Below, piece after piece: positions 38,434 through 49,034 of a stretch of DNA of 64,000 nt. This stretch comes from Vulcanimicrobiota bacterium. GTDB taxonomy: Bacteria; Vulcanimicrobiota; Vulcanimicrobiia; Vulcanimicrobiales; Vulcanimicrobiaceae. Numbering within the stretch: position 1 is the stretch's first letter; every line of letters begins with the position of its first letter. The notes below the pieces were generated by a model. That model worked only from the letters and a program-made list of their open reading frames with translations, had not been told where the DNA came from and ran no database searches. The stretch spans positions 1-64,000 of the forward strand of contig JAAXCW010000008.1 in NCBI GenBank assembly GCA_013036095.1, read 5' to 3'. Made by a program: the position numbers and the translations under genes.

Positions 38434-38897
38434 TGCTCATCGCGGCGGCGTTCGCGTTGGCGTCGTACACGTTCAAGCCCAATACGACGCTTCCGTTCAC
38501 GGCCGTGTACGACAAGTGCGGCGGGGGCAACGTTTCGCCGGAGCTGCACTGGTCCAACGCACCGCGCGGAACGCGCAGTTTCGCGCTGATTCTCTACGAC
38601 CCCGATGCGACGGGCGGTTGGTACCACTGGGTTGCCTACAACATTCCGGCGTCCGTCAACGAGCTGCGTGCGGGCATTAGGCTGCAGCTGGCCGAGATCG
38701 GCGCAACGTCGTTCGGGCAGCTGCGCTACGGCGGCCCATGCCCGCCGCCCGGGAAAGTCCATCACTACATCTTTACGCTCTACGCGCTCGACTCGAGGCG
38801 CATAGGTCCGACGGGAATGACCGGGCCGCACGCGCAGGCTTCGATGCGCAAGCATGTTCTAGGTACCGCGACGGTTACCGGACTCTATAAACGTTAA
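38430..38897 (+). CDS. PEBP/YbhB-like phosphatidylethanolamine-binding protein
   Basis: A 155-aa protein of the Raf-kinase-inhibitor-like (PEBP) family, with the short N-terminus MMLIAAAFALA that may be a weak signal. The family core is VSPELHWSNAPRGTRSFALILYDPDA and GGWYHWVAYNIP, followed by GGPCPPPGKVHHYIFTLYALD. The ligand is unknown in bacteria. The GTG at 38430 overlaps the peptidase stop as GTGA and the stop overlaps hmgA by one base, so the genes are translationally coupled. Confidence 0.9.
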   Translation: MMLIAAAFALASYTFKPNTTLPFTAVYDKCGGGNVSPELHWSNAPRGTRSFALILYDPDATGGWYHWVAYNIPASVNELRAGIRLQLAEIGATSFGQLRYGGPCPPPGKVHHYIFTLYALDSRRIGPTGMTGPHAQASMRKHVLGTATVTGLYKR

Positions 38898-40048
38898 TGC
38901 CGTCCTACGTGCGCGCGGGCGAACTTCCGCCGAAACGCCATATTCAGTTCCGCCGCCCCGACGGCGAGCTGTACGCCGAGGAACTCTTTTCGACCAAGGG
39001 TTTTGAGAGCGCGTACTCGCTGCTCTACCATCTGCGTCCGCCAACGGCGACGCTTGACGTGAAACCCTGGAAACGCGCCGCGGTCGAACTGCTTCCCAAC
39101 GAACCGCTGCGCAACCGTCATTTCAAGACGGCGGAGATTGCCGCGGGCAAAGATGCGATCGAAGCGCGCACGCCGGTGCTTGCGAACTCCGACGTGCTGA
39201 TGAGTGTCTCCGAAACGGCCGATCCGATGGACTACTTCTACCGCAACGTCGGCGGCGACGAGCTGCTCTTCATCCACCGCGGAAAAGGAACGATTCAAAC
39301 GCCCTTCGGCAACCTCGACTACCGGGCGCGAGACTACGTACTGCTTCCGACTGGGACGACGTACAAGGTCTTGCCGGAATCGCCGACCCGCATGCTCGTC
39401 TACGAGAGCAGCGGGATGATTACTATTCCACGCAAGTTTCGCAACGACTTCGGACAACTCGAGGAACACGCGCCGTACTACGAGCGCGATTTTCGGGCTC
39501 CCGAGCTTCGCGCTCCGATCGCAAAGACGGGCGAATACGAAGTCCGGGTCACCAACGCCGGACGAAATGCTGTTTACACCGTTCAAAATCATCCGTGCGA
39601 CGTGATTGGATGGGACGGCTATTGTTATCCTTATGCCTTCAACCTCGACGAATACGCGCCGGTCACCGGAAAGCTTCATCAGCCGCCGCCCTCCCACGCA
39701 ACTTTTGAAGCACCCGGCGCCGCGTTTTGCGCGTTCGTTCCGCGCATGTTCGATTATCATCCGCTCGCGATTCCGATCCCCTATAATCACTCGAGCGTAG
39801 ATTGCGACGAAGTGCTCTACTACGTGAGCGGTAATTTCATGAGCCGGCGCGGCGTTGAGGAAGGCTCCATCACCCTGCACGCGGCCGGCGCGCCGCACGG
39901 GCCACAGCCTGGAGCCGTAGAAGCGAGCCTTGGAAAAACGTCGACCGACGAAATCGCGGTCATGGTCGACACGTTCGCGCCGCTGCAAATCGCCAAACCG
40001 GCGCTGAAAGTGGAAGACGACGAATACTACCGTTCATGGGTGTCATAG
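38897..40048 (+). CDS. hmgA: Homogentisate 1,2-dioxygenase
   Basis: Opens the ring of homogentisate to maleylacetoacetate in tyrosine/phenylalanine degradation. The 383-aa cupin has the iron-binding region near the C-terminus: NHSSVDCDEVLYYVSGNF and TLHAAGAPHGPQPGA. DVIGWDGYCYPYAFN and FVPRMFDYHPLAIPIPY are also family-specific. It is shorter than the 430-450 aa proteobacterial forms and resembles the shorter type. It is the first of a homogentisate pathway cluster with FAH and hpd nearby on either strand. Confidence 0.93.
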   Translation: MPSYVRAGELPPKRHIQFRRPDGELYAEELFSTKGFESAYSLLYHLRPPTATLDVKPWKRAAVELLPNEPLRNRHFKTAEIAAGKDAIEARTPVLANSDVLMSVSETADPMDYFYRNVGGDELLFIHRGKGTIQTPFGNLDYRARDYVLLPTGTTYKVLPESPTRMLVYESSGMITIPRKFRNDFGQLEEHAPYYERDFRAPELRAPIAKTGEYEVRVTNAGRNAVYTVQNHPCDVIGWDGYCYPYAFNLDEYAPVTGKLHQPPPSHATFEAPGAAFCAFVPRMFDYHPLAIPIPYNHSSVDCDEVLYYVSGNFMSRRGVEEGSITLHAAGAPHGPQPGAVEASLGKTSTDEIAVMVDTFAPLQIAKPALKVEDDEYYRSWVS

Positions 40049-40434
40049 CGGCGATGCTTCCAACGCCGGCGCCTTCGCCCACGATTGACCCGTGCAATCA
40101 TCCGCCGGCGATCATCGCCAAGGCGCCTCTCTTAGGGTACGAGATAACTCCGCAAATGCGCCGCGGGGCGGTAGTTCACGGCGCGAGCGATCCATTCGGC
40201 GCCGCTTCGATAAACGGTGTGCCGCCGACGTACCTCGCAGTCTCCATCGACGTTACGATCCGGCTCAACGGGTCCACGGCGTCGGCCCGGGTTGTAGAGC
40301 CTAGCGGCGACATGAGTTTCGATCGAGCTTCGATTGAGGCTGCTTTGCGTTCGACGTACTCTCCCGCGACGATAAAATGCACGGTGGTATTGGGCCACTA
40401 CACGTTCACGGAAACACTTCAGCCGAATTATTAG
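40036..40434 (+). CDS. Small TonB-like C-terminal domain protein
   Basis: A 132-aa protein starting at ATG 40036 (MGVIAAMLPTPAPSP), overlapping hmgA by 13 bp. After a Pro-rich start, the C-terminal part (LAVSIDVTIRLNGSTASARVVEPSGDM then SFDRASIEAALRS) has the alternating strand pattern of a TonB C-terminal domain, here without a clear membrane anchor. Its role next to aromatic catabolism is unknown. It converges with FAH, sharing a few bases of the stop codons. Confidence 0.6.
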   Translation: MGVIAAMLPTPAPSPTIDPCNHPPAIIAKAPLLGYEITPQMRRGAVVHGASDPFGAASINGVPPTYLAVSIDVTIRLNGSTASARVVEPSGDMSFDRASIEAALRSTYSPATIKCTVVLGHYTFTETLQPNY

Positions 40435-41696
40435 CCGCTGCGAGGGCGCTCCACTGGCATAATGGCACCGCGGACGCTGCCAAAGCCGATCTTCGGCTTT
40501 CCGGGCGCTTCGCAGTCTCCGCTCAACGTCACTTCATCCCCGTCCTCTAAAAAGCGCCGCTCTTCACCCGCGGCAAGTTTCAACGGTTTCGTGCCGCGCC
40601 ATGTAAGCTCGATCAAACTTCCATAAGAGTCCGGCGCCGCACCCGAGATCGTTCCCGAGGCAAACAGATCGCCCGCGGATACCGTCGCGCCGTTAGAGGT
40701 CGCGTGCGCGAGTTGCTGGACCATGGTCCAGTAGAGATACTTGAAGTTCGAGCGCGAGATGATCTCGGCCGATGCATTTTCCGTTCGCATCTTCTTCGTT
40801 CGAAGCGCGACCTCTAACGCGATGTCGTAATTCCAATCTTGCGCAGCGTGCAGGTATGCGAGCGGCGCAGGATCCTGTTTGGGCGGCGCCGTCCGGTACG
40901 GCTCGAGCGCATCGAGCGTCACCACCCATGGAGAAATCGACGTCGCAAAGGATTTTCCGAGAAACGGCCCGAGCGGCTGATATTCCCAGGCTTGGATATC
41001 GCGCGCGCTCCAATCGTTGACGAGCACGAGGCCGAAAATATGTTCTCGCGCGCGATCGATCGGAATCGGTTCACCGAGCACGTTGCCGCGGCCGGTAACG
41101 AATCCAACTTCGAGCTCGATATCGAGCATCGCGGTCGGCGCGAACTGGGGCTCGCCGCTTCCCTGTTTGATCTGTCCGCGCGGCCTGACGATTGGCGTTC
41201 CATCGACGACAACGGTTCCCGCGCGCCCGTGATAACCGACCGGCAGCCGCCGCCAATTCGGGAGCAGCGGTTCGGTTCCGGGCCGCATGATCTTTCCGAG
41301 ATTCGTGGCGTGCTCGAGCGAGGAATAGAAATCCACGTAATCGCGCACTTCAAAGGGCATGATCACGCGCGCCGAAGCGCGTGGAACGATAAAGTTTGCG
41401 CGATCCTCAGGCGCGATCGGAGATGAACTGCCCAGCAGGTGTTGCAGGCGGCTGCGCAGATCGGTCCATGCTTCACGGCCCAGTCCGAGTAACTCGTTCA
41501 ACGAAGCGGCGCGCAGCGCGGCACTCAAGAACGAATCGGGAAAAAGGCCGGCGCGCGAAGCCGCATGCGCGTCAAATATCGAATCGCCGATCGCCACGCC
41601 GATATGCGCTCCATCCGGCCGGCTCATAACCCCATACGGCAGATTTTCGAGCGGAAATCCGGAACCGGCCGGAACCGGCACCCAGCTCGCAGCCAC
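40431..41696 (-). CDS. fahA: Fumarylacetoacetase (fumarylacetoacetate hydrolase)
   Basis: Hydrolyses fumarylacetoacetate to fumarate and acetoacetate, the last step of the homogentisate pathway. The 421-aa product has the FAH metal site: DFYSSLEHATNLGKIMRPG, the acidic IELEVGFVTG, and LVLVNDWSARDIQAWEYQPLGPFLGKSFATS. YWTMVQQLAHATSNGA and the C-terminal GSLIELTWRG complete the fold. The start is GTG 41696, sharing one base with the preceding gene's TAG. The longer open frame upstream has no homology. Confidence 0.94.
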   Translation of the reverse strand: MAASWVPVPAGSGFPLENLPYGVMSRPDGAHIGVAIGDSIFDAHAASRAGLFPDSFLSAALRAASLNELLGLGREAWTDLRSRLQHLLGSSSPIAPEDRANFIVPRASARVIMPFEVRDYVDFYSSLEHATNLGKIMRPGTEPLLPNWRRLPVGYHGRAGTVVVDGTPIVRPRGQIKQGSGEPQFAPTAMLDIELEVGFVTGRGNVLGEPIPIDRAREHIFGLVLVNDWSARDIQAWEYQPLGPFLGKSFATSISPWVVTLDALEPYRTAPPKQDPAPLAYLHAAQDWNYDIALEVALRTKKMRTENASAEIISRSNFKYLYWTMVQQLAHATSNGATVSAGDLFASGTISGAAPDSYGSLIELTWRGTKPLKLAAGEERRFLEDGDEVTLSGDCEAPGKPKIGFGSVRGAIMPVERPRSG

Positions 41697-42628
41697 TATG
41701 CTATCAATCCTAGCGCAATAAGATCGTCGACAGGTTCGCTGAAACTGCAGCTTCCGTAAGATTGAAAGCCGGCTGCGCGCGTATCGCGTACGACATCCGC
41801 GCTGACGGCGGCGTCCCGCCAACGCAAACTTTCGCGCTCGAAAATGAAGTGACCGGCATCTTCATCTTCCAGCGAAGCGATGACGGTATCTTCATCAACG
41901 CTCTGCCGCACGAGTGCGGCCGCCGTCAGCACGTTGAGAAATCCGTGCATCACGAAACCGCTCTCTTCGTTGTATCCGCGGATTGGATGATGCAGCCCGG
42001 CTGTTGCCTTAAACGCAACGCCCTCTTCGGCCGCGGCGCGTAAAAAGGTTGCGACGTCCCCAACCGGCGGGATCGACGAAGCGGTGAGGCCTCCGCAACG
42101 CACCTTCGCGAGCAGCCCGTGCCGTTTCATTGACGCCAGGGCACCGGGAAGCAGTGTGTTGCGCCGTTCGTGCTGCGGCAGTTCTATATATGAAGGAACG
42201 TGGCTCAAGCCGCTCTGCGCCATGGCAGCCGAGTATTGCCCGATGGCGGCGTCGTACGTTTCGCGTTGTGAAAGTGGACGCGGCAGAAGCACCTCGAGCG
42301 CTTCGATCGCAACACCCGACGCTTTGCGCGCCGCAATCCGCTCAATCGAAGCTTGTACGGCCGCAAACCACGACCGCGAATCATCTGCCGTTCCGGCAAT
42401 AACGCTCAATGGAACCGCCGCCGGATCGCACTGTAACAGCTCGTCAAGCCGTGATTCCGGCACAATGAATCGCGCCAGCATCCACGCATGCGGTCCGCTG
42501 CGAGCGCCGGCATACTCGGCAAGCGCCGCCTCCATTCCCAGTTGCGCCGGAGGAAAGAGCCCGGCATAGTCGACCAACCCGGCAAACGCGGCGCGGACTG
42601 CAGCCGAAGACGTCGCGGAGGTCGCCAT
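41696..42628 (-). CDS. Conserved protein of unknown function in the homogentisate cluster (possible TIM barrel)
   Basis: I do not recognise this family. From ATG 42628 the protein has 310 aa: VDYAGLFPPAQ near residue 19, ARFIVP near 52, SYIELP at 146-151, AKVRCGG at 174-180 and GVAFKATAGLHHPIRG at 203-218. Strands ending in Glu, Lys, Arg and His side chains are suggestive of a (beta/alpha)8 barrel. Its stop overlaps the FAH start by one base and it is divergent from hpd by 42 bp, so it almost certainly works in this pathway. The glutathione-dependent maleylacetoacetate isomerase expected between HmgA and FAH is missing here; this protein could do that step, by inference only. A longer frame to 43663 is the antisense of hpd. 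Confidence 0.8.
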   Translation of the reverse strand: MATSATSSAAVRAAFAGLVDYAGLFPPAQLGMEAALAEYAGARSGPHAWMLARFIVPESRLDELLQCDPAAVPLSVIAGTADDSRSWFAAVQASIERIAARKASGVAIEALEVLLPRPLSQRETYDAAIGQYSAAMAQSGLSHVPSYIELPQHERRNTLLPGALASMKRHGLLAKVRCGGLTASSIPPVGDVATFLRAAAEEGVAFKATAGLHHPIRGYNEESGFVMHGFLNVLTAAALVRQSVDEDTVIASLEDEDAGHFIFERESLRWRDAAVSADVVRDTRAAGFQSYGSCSFSEPVDDLIALGLIA

Positions 42629-42670: not shown

Positions 42671-43786
42671 ATGTCCGCGCTCACTTCCCCAAAAACGCAT
42701 CCGCTCGCGAAGATCGACTGGGACTATGTCGAGTTCTATACCGGCAATGCCAAACAGTCGGCGCATTACTATTGTTCCGCGTTCGGATTCGATCACATCG
42801 CGTACGCCGGCCCGGAAACAGGCGTGAAAGATCGTGCATCGTACCTGCTCGCGCAAAACAATCTCCGTTTCGTCCTTACCTCGAGCTTGCTGCCGGATGA
42901 TGACGTCACGCGGCACGTTGCGCTGCACGGCGACGGCGTGAAAGATATCGCGATTCTGGTCGAAGATTGCCGCGCGGCGTTCGATGCAGCCGTCACCGGC
43001 GGCGCCGCCGTCGTTTCCGAACCCGCCGAGTTCTCCGATCAGGACGGCTCGATCGTGAAGGCCACTATTGCGACCTACGGCGACACGGTGCACAGTTTTA
43101 TCGAGCGCAAGAACTACCGCGGAATATTTATGCCGGGTTTCGTTTCGCAGCCCAAGTCGCTGCCGCACGTGAGTAAGCCGAGACTTTTGGCTATCGACCA
43201 TTGCGTCGGCAATGTCGGCTGGGGCGAGATGGATAGGTGGGGCGATTTTTACGCGCGCGTTTTTGGTTTCTCGCAGCTGGTCTCGTTCGACGACAAAGAT
43301 ATTTCGACCGAATATACGGCGTTGCGATCCAAGGTGATGACCGACGCTGAGCACCGCGTAAAATTTCCCATCAACGAACCGGCGCATGGAAAGAAAAAAT
43401 CGCAGATCGAGGAGTATCTGGACTTCTACCGCGGCGCCGGCGTTCAGCATATCGCGATCCGCACCGACGACATCATCGCGACCATTCGCGCGCTCAAGGA
43501 AAACGGGGTCGAATTCCTCGACACGCCCGATACGTACTATGACGATCTCGAGGCGCGGGTCGGAAGAATCGACGAAGCGACGCAGATCCTGCGCGACCTG
43601 CGGATACTGGTCGACCGCGACGACCGCGGATATATGCTCCAGATATTTACCAAGCCGCTGCAAGACAGGCCGACCGTCTTCTTCGAGATCATCCAGCGCA
43701 AAGGCAGCCTGAGCTTCGGTAAGGGAAACTTCAAAGCGCTTTTCGTCTCGATCGAAAAAGAGCAGGAACGCCGGGGAACGTTGTGA
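42671..43786 (+). CDS. hpd: 4-hydroxyphenylpyruvate dioxygenase
   Basis: Converts 4-hydroxyphenylpyruvate, from tyrosine transamination, to homogentisate with an Fe(II) centre. The 371-aa product has two VOC-type halves; the iron ligands lie in IDHCVGNV, VQHIAIRTDD and FFEIIQRKG. It ends in the usual FGKGNFKALFVSIEKEQ. The start is ATG 42671 (MSALTSPKTH); an open frame from 42488 overlaps the divergent gene and has no homology. It supplies the substrate for hmgA. Confidence 0.96.
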   Translation: MSALTSPKTHPLAKIDWDYVEFYTGNAKQSAHYYCSAFGFDHIAYAGPETGVKDRASYLLAQNNLRFVLTSSLLPDDDVTRHVALHGDGVKDIAILVEDCRAAFDAAVTGGAAVVSEPAEFSDQDGSIVKATIATYGDTVHSFIERKNYRGIFMPGFVSQPKSLPHVSKPRLLAIDHCVGNVGWGEMDRWGDFYARVFGFSQLVSFDDKDISTEYTALRSKVMTDAEHRVKFPINEPAHGKKKSQIEEYLDFYRGAGVQHIAIRTDDIIATIRALKENGVEFLDTPDTYYDDLEARVGRIDEATQILRDLRILVDRDDRGYMLQIFTKPLQDRPTVFFEIIQRKGSLSFGKGNFKALFVSIEKEQERRGTL

Positions 43787-44661
43787 GCGTCACCGTCGAC
43801 GCGGTCATGCTCGAAGCGCGCGCCGGTTCGCTGGCGAAGCGTTCGATCAAAACGACCGCCAAGGTAGCCGGAATTCGGTTAGCGATCGGCTGCATGGATC
43901 TCACAACGCTCGAGGGCAAAGATTCGCACGGCCGCATCCGGTCGCTCTGCGCGAAAGCGCTTCACCCCGCGCCGCATTTGCCCGACGTGCCGAGCGTGGC
44001 CGCGGTTTGCGTCTATCCCAATCTCGTGCCGGCTGCCAAGGAAGCGCTGCGCGGAAGCAGCGTAAAGGTAGCGTCGGTCGCGACGGCTTTTCCAAGCGGC
44101 CAGTCCTCAATGGAAGTGAAGCTCGCCGACACGGCTGAAGCAATCGCCGCGGGCGCGGACGAAATCGATATGGTCATCGATCGCGGCGCATTTCTGTCGG
44201 GTTACTATCGCGCCGTGTACGACGAAATCGTCGCGATAAAGGCTGCCTGCGGCCCGGTTCATCTCAAGGTCATCCTCGAAACCGGCGAGCTGGGCAGTTA
44301 CGATGCGATTCGCCGGGCGAGCGATCTCGCGCTTGAAGCCGGGGCCGATTTCATCAAGACTTCGACCGGTAAAGTGGGGACAAACGCGACATTCCCTGTC
44401 GCGGTGACGATGTGCGAAGCGATTCGCGATTACGCGCGGCGAACCGGCCGGCGCGCGGGCCTGAAGGTCGCGGGCGGCGTTCGCAATACGAAACAAGCGA
44501 TGACCTACCTGGTCATTATAAAGGAAACGCTCGGCGAATCGTGGCTGACGCCCGACCTCTTCCGGATAGGCGCGAGCTCGCTGCTCGACGATCTCCTCAT
44601 GCAGTACGAAAAGCAGTTGACCGGGCACTACGCCGGACGCGACTACTTCCCGATGGATTGA
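43783..44661 (+). CDS. deoC: Deoxyribose-phosphate aldolase
   Basis: Cleaves 2-deoxyribose 5-phosphate to glyceraldehyde 3-phosphate and acetaldehyde. The 292-aa protein has the Schiff-base lysine in GADFIKTSTGK and the second conserved lysine in GLKVAGGVR, with IDMVIDRGAF earlier. It starts at GTG 43783, overlapping the hpd stop as GTGA, and is directly followed by an aldehyde dehydrogenase, which could oxidise the acetaldehyde product. Confidence 0.95.
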   Translation: MSVTVDAVMLEARAGSLAKRSIKTTAKVAGIRLAIGCMDLTTLEGKDSHGRIRSLCAKALHPAPHLPDVPSVAAVCVYPNLVPAAKEALRGSSVKVASVATAFPSGQSSMEVKLADTAEAIAAGADEIDMVIDRGAFLSGYYRAVYDEIVAIKAACGPVHLKVILETGELGSYDAIRRASDLALEAGADFIKTSTGKVGTNATFPVAVTMCEAIRDYARRTGRRAGLKVAGGVRNTKQAMTYLVIIKETLGESWLTPDLFRIGASSLLDDLLMQYEKQLTGHYAGRDYFPMD

Positions 44662-44664
44662 TGC

Positions 44665-46101
44665 ATGGCGATTTTTGAATACGCGCCCGCACCCGAAACC
44701 GTCAAAGCTCCGATTCGCGAGCAGTACGGACTCTTTATCGACGGCAAGTGGACCGCGCCGCGCAGCGGACAGTATTTTGACACCGTCAATCCCGCCACCG
44801 AAGAAACGCTGGCGCGGGTCGCTCACGCCAGCGACGAGGACGTCGACCGTGCCGTCCGCGCCGCGCGTAAAGCCTACGACAAATACTGGCGCAAAATGCG
44901 TCCCGCGGATCGCGCCAAGTATATCTACCGCATAGCGCGCGCAATCACCGAACGCTCGCGCGAACTCGCGGTGCTCGAAACGATGGACGGCGGCAAGCCG
45001 ATCAAAGAGTCGCGCGATTTCGACATCCCGCTCTCGGCCGCGCACTTCTTCTACTACGCCGGCTGGGCCGACAAGCTCGAATGGGCGATGCGCGCGGGCC
45101 AAGAGCCTCGGCCGATCGGCGTCGCCGGACAGATCGTGCCGTGGAACTTCCCGCTACTCATGGCTGCGTGGAAAGTCGCGCCGGCGCTGGCTTGCGGCAA
45201 CACGATTGTTTTAAAACCGGCCGAGACGACGCCGCTGACCGCGCTCGCGCTCGCGCAAATCGCCGCCGAAGCCGATCTGCCTCCGGGCGTGCTCAATGTC
45301 ATTACCGGCGACGGAACGACGGGAGCCGCACTCGTGGGGCATCCCGATGTCGACAAGATTGCGTTCACCGGATCGACCGAAGTCGGCAAAGCCATCCAGC
45401 GCTCGACCGCGGGCAGCGGAAAACGCCTGACGCTCGAACTCGGCGGAAAAGCGGCGCACATCGTCTTCGCCGACGCGCCGATGGATCAAGCCATCGAAGG
45501 CATCGTTAACGGAATCTACTTCAATCAAGGTCACGTCTGCTGCGCCGGTTCGCGCCTGCTCGTGGAGGAAAGCGTTCACGAGCAAATCGTCGTGCGCTTG
45601 ACCGATCGCATTCAAACGCTACGCTTGGGAGATCCGCTCGACAAGAACACGGATGTCGGCGCGATTAATTCCAAGATGCAGTTGGATAAAATCAAGGAAC
45701 TGGTCGGAAGCGGCATCGACGAAGGCGCCGTTCTCGTTCAGCAGTCCTGCGAGTTACCGGAAAAGGGGTATTTCTTTCCCGCCTCCTTCTTCACGAACGT
45801 CCAGCAATCGCACCGGATCGCGCGTGAGGAAATTTTCGGCCCGGTTCTCTCCATCCTCACTTTTCGAACGCCCGAAGAAGCCGTAGAGAAAGCAAACAAC
45901 ACGCCGTACGGTCTTTCCGCAGGCATCTGGACCGACAAAGGAAGCAAGAACATGTACATCGCGCAGTATTTGCGCGCAGGCGTGGTGTGGTGCAACACGT
46001 TCAACCAATTCGATCCGAGCTCGCCATTCGGCGGATTCCGCGAGTCCGGATTTGGGCGCGAGGGTGGCGTCCACGGCTTACGTGAGTACCTGGCCCACTG
46101 A
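44665..46101 (+). CDS. NAD(P)-dependent aldehyde dehydrogenase
   Basis: A full-length, 478-aa ALDH: PWNFPLLMAAWKVAPALACGN, the cofactor loop FTGSTEVGK, the general base Glu in LELGGKAAHIVF and the catalytic Cys in QGHVCCAGSRL. REEIFGPVLSI and NNTPYGLSAGIW close the active site. It is 3 bp after deoC, so acetaldehyde from DeoC is the likely substrate, though this is inference. A half-length ALDH-like gene lies 9.6 kb away at 55688. Confidence 0.93.
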   Translation: MAIFEYAPAPETVKAPIREQYGLFIDGKWTAPRSGQYFDTVNPATEETLARVAHASDEDVDRAVRAARKAYDKYWRKMRPADRAKYIYRIARAITERSRELAVLETMDGGKPIKESRDFDIPLSAAHFFYYAGWADKLEWAMRAGQEPRPIGVAGQIVPWNFPLLMAAWKVAPALACGNTIVLKPAETTPLTALALAQIAAEADLPPGVLNVITGDGTTGAALVGHPDVDKIAFTGSTEVGKAIQRSTAGSGKRLTLELGGKAAHIVFADAPMDQAIEGIVNGIYFNQGHVCCAGSRLLVEESVHEQIVVRLTDRIQTLRLGDPLDKNTDVGAINSKMQLDKIKELVGSGIDEGAVLVQQSCELPEKGYFFPASFFTNVQQSHRIAREEIFGPVLSILTFRTPEEAVEKANNTPYGLSAGIWTDKGSKNMYIAQYLRAGVVWCNTFNQFDPSSPFGGFRESGFGREGGVHGLREYLAH

Positions 46102-47761
46102 TCCCCGCGCTTTCGAGTCACTGTTCGAGGCCACGCCCAGCGCGATCTTCGCGCTGGATCGCGCCGGACGCATCGTCGGAGCGAACGCAGCCGCCTCGGT
46201 CCTGACCGGATATTCCCGTGACGAGCTCACCGCGCTCGATATCTCGCAGCTCGCGTTAGAATCCGTTGCATTCGTCACCGAAGCGCTAGCGGCGGCGGAA
46301 AAGCGCGAAGCCAGCGCCGCCGAAATGGATTTTCAGCGCAAAGATTCGTCGCTGGTGCCGGTGCAGGTGACGACGATCCCGATTGTCGACGGAAAACACG
46401 CCGGCGGCGTTTTCTTTCGCGTCGAAGAGGCGCAGTATCTCACCGAGATGCGCCGTACCCGCGCGCACATGCGCACGCTCGCCTATTACGATTCGCTGAC
46501 CGGTCTCCCCAACCGCATTTTCTTCCAAGAACGGTTGCGCGACGCGTTGGAGCATGCGCCGGGACAACTGCCCTGTGTCGCTCTGCTTTTCCTCGACGTG
46601 GATCGCTTCAAAGATATTAACGATACGCTCGGGCACGCGCTCGGCGATCGCTTTTTGCAGCTGATCGGGGAACGGCTGGTGCTGCTCGTCAAGAATCGCG
46701 GCATCGTCGCGCGCCTAGGCGGCGATGAGTTCGTCGTGCTCGCTCCCTGCGCCGGCGACGGCGAGGTGCACGAGCTGGCCGAAGAGCTGCTGGCTACGGC
46801 CGACCAACCGTACCGCATCGAAGGCTACGAACAATTCATCACCACCAGCATCGGCATCTCGGTCTATCCCGATCACGGACGCAACGATCAAGCGCTGATC
46901 AAGAATGCCGACATCGCGATGTACCACGCAAAGGAACAAGGCCGCAACGCTTATTTCTTTTATGACGAAGCGCTCGAAGCGCCCATCCGCAGCCGCCTGG
47001 CGCAAGAGAAGCAGCTCAGGCTCGCGCTCAAACGCGACGAGTTCGTTCTGCAATATCAGCCGATCGTGCAGATTGCCGACGGCAACCCGATCGTCGCACT
47101 GGAAGCGCTGGTGCGGTGGAACCATCCGTCTGAAGGCATGCTCGGACCCGACGCCTTCATTCCGGCGGCCGAAGCTAGCGGTCTGATCGTTCCCCTCGGA
47201 GAGTGGGTACAAAAGACGGGCGCCGTGCAAATGCGCGAATGGCAAAAGCGCTTCGGATTTCTCGTGCTGGCGATCAATATTTCGGCGCGGCAATTTCACC
47301 AGCGCGATCTCTGTGAGCGGTTGGTCGAGATCGTCAACAGCGCCGGCTTGCCTCCCCAGGCAATTGAAGTGGAGATCACCGAGAGTATGGCGCTCTTCGA
47401 CGCAGAGCACGCGATCGAAACCATTCACGGCTTGAAGCGGATCGGTGCTCAGATTGCGATCGATGATTTCGGCACGGGTCATTCCTCGCTGAATTATCTG
47501 CGCAGATTCGATGCGGATCACATCAAGATCGACCGCTCGTTCGTCGCCGGCATAGGGGGCCCCGGCAGCGACGACGGCATCGTGAAGGCCATCATCGCGA
47601 TGGGTCACAGTTTGGGACTGAAGATCATCGCCGAGGGCGTAGAGATGCCCGAGCAGTACGAGTTCCTGCGCACACAGGGGTGCGATTTGGTCCAAGGGAA
47701 CCTCTTTGCTCCGCCCATGGATCCTTTACAACTCGAGAAGCTGCTGGCGGCAAGAGCGTGA
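46082..47761 (+). CDS. PAS-GGDEF-EAL protein
   Basis: A cytoplasmic c-di-GMP enzyme of about 559 aa. The N-terminal PAS domain (about 10-115, LFEATPSAIFALDRAGRI) is followed by a GGDEF domain with intact RLGGDEFVVL, so it can be an active cyclase, and an EAL domain with LEALVRWNHP, VEITESMALF, IAIDDFGTGHSSLNYL and IKIDRSFVAG, so the phosphodiesterase is also probably active. The start is uncertain: GTG 46082, overlapping ALDH by 20 bp, or TTG 46052. It lies in the same direction as deoC-ALDH. Confidence 0.93.
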   Translation: MSTWPTDPRAFESLFEATPSAIFALDRAGRIVGANAAASVLTGYSRDELTALDISQLALESVAFVTEALAAAEKREASAAEMDFQRKDSSLVPVQVTTIPIVDGKHAGGVFFRVEEAQYLTEMRRTRAHMRTLAYYDSLTGLPNRIFFQERLRDALEHAPGQLPCVALLFLDVDRFKDINDTLGHALGDRFLQLIGERLVLLVKNRGIVARLGGDEFVVLAPCAGDGEVHELAEELLATADQPYRIEGYEQFITTSIGISVYPDHGRNDQALIKNADIAMYHAKEQGRNAYFFYDEALEAPIRSRLAQEKQLRLALKRDEFVLQYQPIVQIADGNPIVALEALVRWNHPSEGMLGPDAFIPAAEASGLIVPLGEWVQKTGAVQMREWQKRFGFLVLAINISARQFHQRDLCERLVEIVNSAGLPPQAIEVEITESMALFDAEHAIETIHGLKRIGAQIAIDDFGTGHSSLNYLRRFDADHIKIDRSFVAGIGGPGSDDGIVKAIIAMGHSLGLKIIAEGVEMPEQYEFLRTQGCDLVQGNLFAPPMDPLQLEKLLAARA

Positions 47762-47765
47762 TCTT

Positions 47766-49034
47766 GTGCTCACCCATACCGAAGGAATAGACCGCCAAGC
47801 CCTAGCCGATTGGTACCGGCGCAACCGTCAGCGCTCGGCGCGGCTTTTCGCGCTGATCGCGCCCGAGGCGTACTACGATCGCCCAATTCCGCTGCGTCAT
47901 CCGTTCGCGTTTTACGAGGGTCATTTACCGGCGTTCAGTTTTTTGGTCGTTGACGAACGCGCTTTGGGCGAGCCGCCGGTCGACGCGAGGCTTGAGAAAA
48001 TCTTTGAACGCGGAATCGATCCCGCGACGGTGCGCGACGCGGACGGTCACACCCGTTCCGATTGGCCATCCAAAACGGAGATCGAAGCGTTTGGGCGCGC
48101 GTGCGATGCGCGCATCTTGGCTGCGATCGCGCGAGCCAGACTCGACAATCCCGGCGTGCCGCGACTCGTGCGCGCGCAAGGCGTCTACACGGCTTTGGAA
48201 CACGAGCCGATGCATCACGAGACGCTCGTCTACCTTCTTCACCAGCTCTCGAACGATAAGAAACGCCCCGTTCAACAAAAGCACCGCGATACGGCGCCCC
48301 CAGAAAACGATTTCGTGGAGATCGCCGCCGGAACCGCAACGCTCGGCGCGCGCCGCGACGCGATACCGTTCGGCTGGGACAACGAGTTTGACGAGCACCG
48401 CGTCTCCGTCGGCCAATTTGCGATTCAACGCTTCCCGGTGACCAACGCCGATTACCGCGAGTTCGTGAAAGCGGGCGGCCCCGTTCCGCCGTTTTGGATC
48501 GAACGCGACGGCGAGTTCCGGCTGCGCGGCGTTTTCGAGGAGCTTCCGCTTCCGCTTTCGTGGCCGGTCTATGCGCGACACGACGACGTGCAGGCCTACG
48601 CGGATTGGAAAGGCGCGCGGCTGCCGACCGAACCGGAATACCACCGCGCCGCGTTCGGCGCACCCTCCGGCGGCGAAAGAGCTTTCCCGTGGGGCGCGCA
48701 TCCGCCGAGCTCCGAGTTTGGGAACTTCGGTTTCGCGCGCTACGATCCGGAACCGGTCGATGCGCATCCGTCCGGCGCCAGCGCGTGGGGCGTTCACGAT
48801 TTGATCGGCAACGGTTGGGAATGGACGAGCACGGTTTTTGCGCCTTTTCCGGGGTTCGAGCCGATGGCCAGTTATCCGCAGTACAGCGCGGATTTCTTCG
48901 ACGGAAAGCACTACGTGATGAAAGGAGCTTCGCCCGTGACCGCTCTCGAGCTCATCCGGCGGAGTTTCCGCAATTGGTTCTACGGAGACTATCCTTATAT
49001 GTACGCGAAGTTCAGGCTCGTGCTCGACCGGTGA
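47766..49034 (+). CDS. EgtB-like sulfoxide-synthase family protein
   Basis: EgtB-type enzymes are non-haem iron proteins forming C-S bonds in ergothioneine or related thiol metabolite synthesis. The 422-aa protein has a DinB-like helical domain with the motif HEPMHHE (HX3HXE, near 138) and GHLPAF earlier, giving the three-His iron site, and a C-terminal FGE/sulfatase-modifying fold (about 175-420; RFPVTNADYREFVKAGG, GARLPTEPEYHRAAFG, NGWEWTSTVF). The start is GTG 47766. No egtD, egtC or egtE homologue is adjacent, so the product is uncertain; related ovothiol- or selenoneine-type enzymes are alternatives. Confidence 0.85.
   Translation: MLTHTEGIDRQALADWYRRNRQRSARLFALIAPEAYYDRPIPLRHPFAFYEGHLPAFSFLVVDERALGEPPVDARLEKIFERGIDPATVRDADGHTRSDWPSKTEIEAFGRACDARILAAIARARLDNPGVPRLVRAQGVYTALEHEPMHHETLVYLLHQLSNDKKRPVQQKHRDTAPPENDFVEIAAGTATLGARRDAIPFGWDNEFDEHRVSVGQFAIQRFPVTNADYREFVKAGGPVPPFWIERDGEFRLRGVFEELPLPLSWPVYARHDDVQAYADWKGARLPTEPEYHRAAFGAPSGGERAFPWGAHPPSSEFGNFGFARYDPEPVDAHPSGASAWGVHDLIGNGWEWTSTVFAPFPGFEPMASYPQYSADFFDGKHYVMKGASPVTALELIRRSFRNWFYGDYPYMYAKFRLVLDR

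Follow-up and report, generated by a model that had tools for sequence, protein, structure and literature searches.

An unrecognised protein encoded directly upstream of fumarylacetoacetase as a candidate replacement for maleylacetoacetate isomerase

Introduction

In the breakdown of homogentisate, the product of homogentisate 1,2-dioxygenase (HmgA) is cis-maleylacetoacetate, while the substrate of fumarylacetoacetase (FAH, encoded by fahA) is trans-fumarylacetoacetate. The described enzyme at this place in the pathway is MaiA/GSTZ1 (TIGR01262), which belongs to the glutathione S-transferases and is about 210 aa long. The gentisate pathway has an analogous cis-trans step, and there a non-GST answer is known: maleylpyruvate isomerases that depend on mycothiol or cysteine and have the DinB fold, a four-helix bundle.

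In Bacillus the gene for maleylacetoacetate isomerase is said not to be identifiable (PMC4457819, PMC6193087), and the figure legend describing a homogentisate cluster of Rhodococcus ruber names hmgA and hmgB and, within that legend, no isomerase (PMC6498646). Among open-licence papers we found nothing relevant on thiol- or glutathione-independent maleylacetoacetate isomerases, nor any description of the protein family reported here.

We analysed a 64,000-nucleotide stretch of a Vulcanimicrobiota genome (contig JAAXCW010000008.1, positions 1 to 64,000; the window) that carries the genes for HmgA, FAH and 4-hydroxyphenylpyruvate dioxygenase (Hpd), together with a protein of unrecognised family, which we call X. 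The position that we propose for X in the pathway is that of MaiA, after homogentisate dioxygenase and before fumarylacetoacetase. X probably catalyses the missing step, since its gene lies directly before fahA in many bacteria that are without the glutathione-dependent isomerase.

Results

The X gene and its neighbours

The gene for X, the proposed maleylacetoacetate isomerase, lies on the minus strand (41696..42628) and encodes 310 aa, running from an ATG at 42628 to a TAG stop at 41698-41696. The gene downstream on the same strand, fahA (40431..41696), matches TIGR01266 with 517 bits, above the cut-off. As its GTG start occupies 41696-41694, one base is common to the X stop and the fahA start. 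On the other side hpd (42671..43786, plus strand; TIGR01263, 456 bits, above the cut-off) is divergent from X, with 42 bp between the two starts. Conservation of the X reading frame across 60 sequences, with identity falling to about 28%, indicates that X is a real gene. The hmgA gene (38897..40048, plus strand) encodes a short, divergent homogentisate 1,2-dioxygenase of 383 aa. It exceeds the cut-off of Pfam HgmA_N (PF20510) and scores only 59.5 bits against TIGR01015, where the cut-off is 510.75; the NCBI hmgA equivalog model thus misses this short form, which is the one found in most genomes with X. After hpd come deoC and an aldehyde dehydrogenase gene (43783-46101), an order kept in five close relatives (L002-L006).

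A preliminary description of this DNA had reported hmgA, FAH and hpd, a 310-aa open reading frame of unknown family overlapping FAH by one base and separated from hpd by 42 bp, and no MaiA-like GST gene in the window. The coordinates and the profile scores agree with this, and none of the 46 window ORFs that we scanned is a GST gene. When the whole genome, which is 97% complete, was searched for MaiA, there was no TIGR01262 match at E<=1.

Searches for known relatives

X has no Pfam or NCBIfam match, and its only sequence match in the PDB is at chance level. The same searches with 38 relatives gave chance matches only. Neither X nor its relatives matched TIGR01262 or any GST-type model in NCBIfam or Pfam, and, unlike the DinB-fold maleylpyruvate isomerases, none of the 39 sequences has an MDMPI_N or DinB_2 domain in Pfam. 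The unknown family of the preliminary description therefore stands, the profile searches having assigned X to no known family with an unrelated reaction. Members of the family are annotated merely as 'hypothetical protein' and adjoin fahA in at least four phyla. A search of viral contigs found no relatives.

Distribution and gene order

We surveyed X by a profile search of 245 genomes, the first search having used a single X protein. Most of the set comes from the window's own family, and the named relatives are Candidatus Eremiobacterota. X was found in 96 genomes, FAH (TIGR01266) in 102 and HmgA in 106. X and FAH occur together in 94 genomes, X alone in two, FAH alone in eight and neither in 141, a co-occurrence with a Fisher p of 2e-55 (n=245) when relatedness is ignored, so that genomes count as independent.

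Of the 98 places where X was found, 90 have fahA as the next gene downstream in the same orientation, usually within 60 bp and often overlapping or nearly so. At two of the other eight (in G038 and G039) a canonical hmgA stands between X and fahA; for the remaining six, no FAH match lies on the contig in the orientation of X, and several of these contigs are small or fragmentary. The order X-canonical hmgA-fahA in G038 (L084) involves a second copy of X, the other X-fahA pair of that genome being on a different contig (L085). X accompanies the canonical HmgA as well as the short one, and this makes it unlikely that X belongs to the short HmgA as a subunit.

Four genomes of the set lie outside the window's phylum and have X (G152, G155, G173 and G199), with FAH immediately downstream in each. 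X is also present on plasmids or replicons listed as plasmids in Streptomyces, Rhodococcus, Tsukamurella, Pseudonocardia, Nonomuraea, Priestia and Kovacikia. At all 11 plasmid loci inspected, from Actinomycetota, Bacillota and Cyanobacteriota, X directly precedes fahA. The order is often hmgA-X-fahA and otherwise X-fahA, and several of these loci are without hpd, which ties X to the interval from HmgA to FAH rather than to hpd. The minimal conserved unit is X-fahA, and at some loci hmgA does not adjoin it. A few kb away from X, two of the Streptomyces plasmid loci encode a DinB protein annotated with a 'maleylpyruvate isomerase N-terminal domain', which counts against reading X as an isomerase.

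X and MaiA

MaiA scored above the cut-off in two of the 245 genomes, neither of which has X. In the phylum of G176, which is rich in MaiA and for which the counts cover MaiA and X, it did so in 125 of 195 genomes. X was found in none of these 195 genomes, using a profile that has no positive control in this phylum, though it does match genomes of several other phyla. X and MaiA thus never occur in one genome in either set. As the two are partitioned by phylum, there may be only a few independent evolutionary events behind this mutual exclusion.

Genomes without X

Four genomes (G157, G164, G181 and G210; loci L118, L120, L121 and L122) have the short HmgA and Hpd and no X. Near hmgA and hpd they encode an FAA hydrolase that is short and divergent, with 27-29% identity to FAH. 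These short proteins are candidate maleylacetoacetate hydrolases, comparable with the maleylacetoacetate hydrolase activity reported in some Bacillus (PMC4457819). Direct hydrolysis of maleylacetoacetate would need no isomerase.

Among the eight genomes with FAH and no X, six have full-length FAH and HmgA with neither X nor MaiA above the cut-off. All six are drafts (G013, G021, G025, G029, G034 and G074; L068-L073). The isomerisation is apparently met in some other way in these genomes, or is spontaneous.

Conserved residues and predicted fold

In an alignment of 60 X sequences, Glu112, Glu149, Lys175, Arg177, Gly179, Lys207, Thr209, Gly211, Leu212, His213, Gly292, Cys294, Ser295 and Pro299 are invariant. 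Asp20 is present in 59 of the 60, His214 in 56 and Cys178 in 49. The preliminary description had picked out Glu149, Lys175, Arg177, Cys178, Lys207 and His213/214. The glutamate, the two lysines, the arginine and His213 hold up; Cys178 and His214 do not, and the invariant Cys294 had been missed. As Cys178 is replaced by threonine in 10 of the 60 sequences, we rejected it as a catalytic residue.

Two AlphaFold2 models were made, each from six close sequences, the second using the same rows with a different ortholog as query. They have pTM values of 0.71 and 0.75 and a pLDDT of about 70, and they show alternating strands and helices. Glu112, Glu149, Lys175 and Lys207 are placed on consecutive strands. 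Confidence is low around Asp20, His213 and Cys294, the last of which is modelled in the loop following the final strand. The models are barrel-like and not thioredoxin-like, so that X, at about 310 aa, is predicted to differ in fold as well as length from MaiA/GSTZ1. The barrel-like pattern noticed earlier thus gains the support of two models, both of low to moderate confidence.

In Foldseek searches the best PDB matches of both models were class I aldolases, with weak E values of 2e-4 to 1e-2 and TM scores of about 0.3-0.6. The first model matched sulfohexulose-phosphate and tagatose-bisphosphate (LacD) aldolases (E 2e-4 to 1e-3), followed by deoxyribose-phosphate aldolase (DERA, DeoC); the second matched DERA (E 6.5e-3). 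These shallow models suggest that X may have a TIM-like barrel similar to that of class I aldolases, above all DERA. Matched by eye, Asp20, Glu112, Glu149, Lys175 and Lys207 of X follow the same order, and have roughly the same spacing, as Asp39, Asp129, Lys162, Lys192 and Lys228 of the DeoC encoded in the window. The predicted strand positions and invariance of Lys175 and Lys207 make them candidates for a Schiff-base lysine. X differs from the class I aldolases in having Glu149 where DeoC has a lysine, in its invariant Cys294 in the last loop and in its gene context. At the sequence level, comparison of X with two DERA alignments by hhalign was not significant (probability 0.1-0.3%, E 0.14-0.63), and neither X nor its relatives match Pfam DeoC. 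We do not claim homology to DERA, because the profile comparison gave no significant score, and X was not filed as a member of that family.

Discussion

The co-occurrence with FAH, the adjacency to fahA and the exclusion of MaiA suggest that X tracks the need for the trans substrate of FAH. We propose that X is a non-orthologous replacement, with a different fold, of the GST-family maleylacetoacetate isomerase, and put the probability of this at roughly two in three; the pathway role is well supported, though by indirect evidence, and the chemistry is deduced. X would turn the cis-maleylacetoacetate made by HmgA into trans-fumarylacetoacetate for the FAH encoded directly downstream.

A thiol-independent isomerase, or an enzyme of another pathway step, was the reading put forward in the preliminary description, which had proposed a survey of co-occurrence with hpd/hmgA/FAH and of anticorrelation with maiA; our survey found FAH in 94 of the 96 genomes with X and no genome with both X and maiA. 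It had set against its own reading a maiA elsewhere in the genome together with wide occurrence of the family without hmgA/FAH. The genome gave no TIGR01262 match, and the family is scarcely seen away from FAH. That reading is partly borne out: co-occurrence, adjacency and exclusion of MaiA support the isomerase step, while the list of residues changes, with Cys178 out and Cys294 in.

X might instead catalyse another reaction of the pathway, either aldolase-like or in the repair or removal of a side-product such as succinylacetoacetate, with the isomerisation spontaneous or carried out by a thiol-dependent DinB or GST protein encoded elsewhere. The best structural neighbours of X are aldolases, and there are the genomes that have HmgA and FAH without either X or MaiA. 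A mycothiol-dependent maleylpyruvate isomerase has also been named for the Rhodococcus gentisate cluster (PMC6498646). We nevertheless think this unlikely, as an enzyme acting on a side-product would not be predicted to sit between HmgA and FAH and never to accompany MaiA.

The tightness of the X-fahA unit, whose genes often overlap or nearly do and which hmgA does not always adjoin, would also fit a protein that partners the long-type FAH, acts as its chaperone or helps to assemble it. This seems a poor prospect. The invariant charged residues and the cysteine, at the predicted ends of barrel strands, look catalytic; a few FAH genes do occur without X, and the genomes with MaiA are without it.

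That X is a maleylacetoacetate hydrolase, splitting the cis compound in parallel to FAH, is very improbable despite the hydrolase activity of some Bacillus (PMC4457819), as the full-length FAH almost always present with X would then be redundant and the short FAA hydrolases of genomes without X are better candidates for a hydrolytic route.

If X is the isomerase, its conserved residues offer a possible mechanism. Maleylacetoacetate is a conjugated enone, and with an iminium at its ketone a nucleophile would more readily add in a reversible way, to be eliminated after rotation. One of the invariant lysines of X may form an iminium with the substrate ketone, which would make the conjugated double bond electrophilic. 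A nucleophile of the protein, for which Cys294 is the best candidate, might then add reversibly, allowing the bond to rotate before the nucleophile departs. X would in this way supply from its own chain what MaiA obtains from glutathione. The Foldseek matches include engineered DERA variants that carry out iminium-based Michael additions (7p75, 7p76), which shows that a scaffold of this type can support such chemistry, although it says nothing direct about X. More tentatively than the pathway role, then, we suggest that an aldolase-like barrel may have been recruited to homogentisate breakdown as a cis-trans isomerase that needs neither cofactor nor thiol and acts covalently through its own lysine and cysteine. 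It would serve in several phyla, among them Actinomycetota and Bacillota, groups known for thiols other than glutathione.

If the proposal is right, annotation databases could close the gap in tyrosine catabolism for many genomes, and X would represent a new fold for cis-trans isomerisation. For bacteria other than Bacillus, Streptomyces, Rhodococcus and Priestia among them, it offers a concrete and easily tested candidate for the isomerase.

The window has a single DinB domain among the ORFs scanned, in a fusion of DinB_2 with FGE-sulfatase at 47706-49034. EgtB, an enzyme of ergothioneine synthesis, combines these domains, and the fusion possibly belongs to that pathway.
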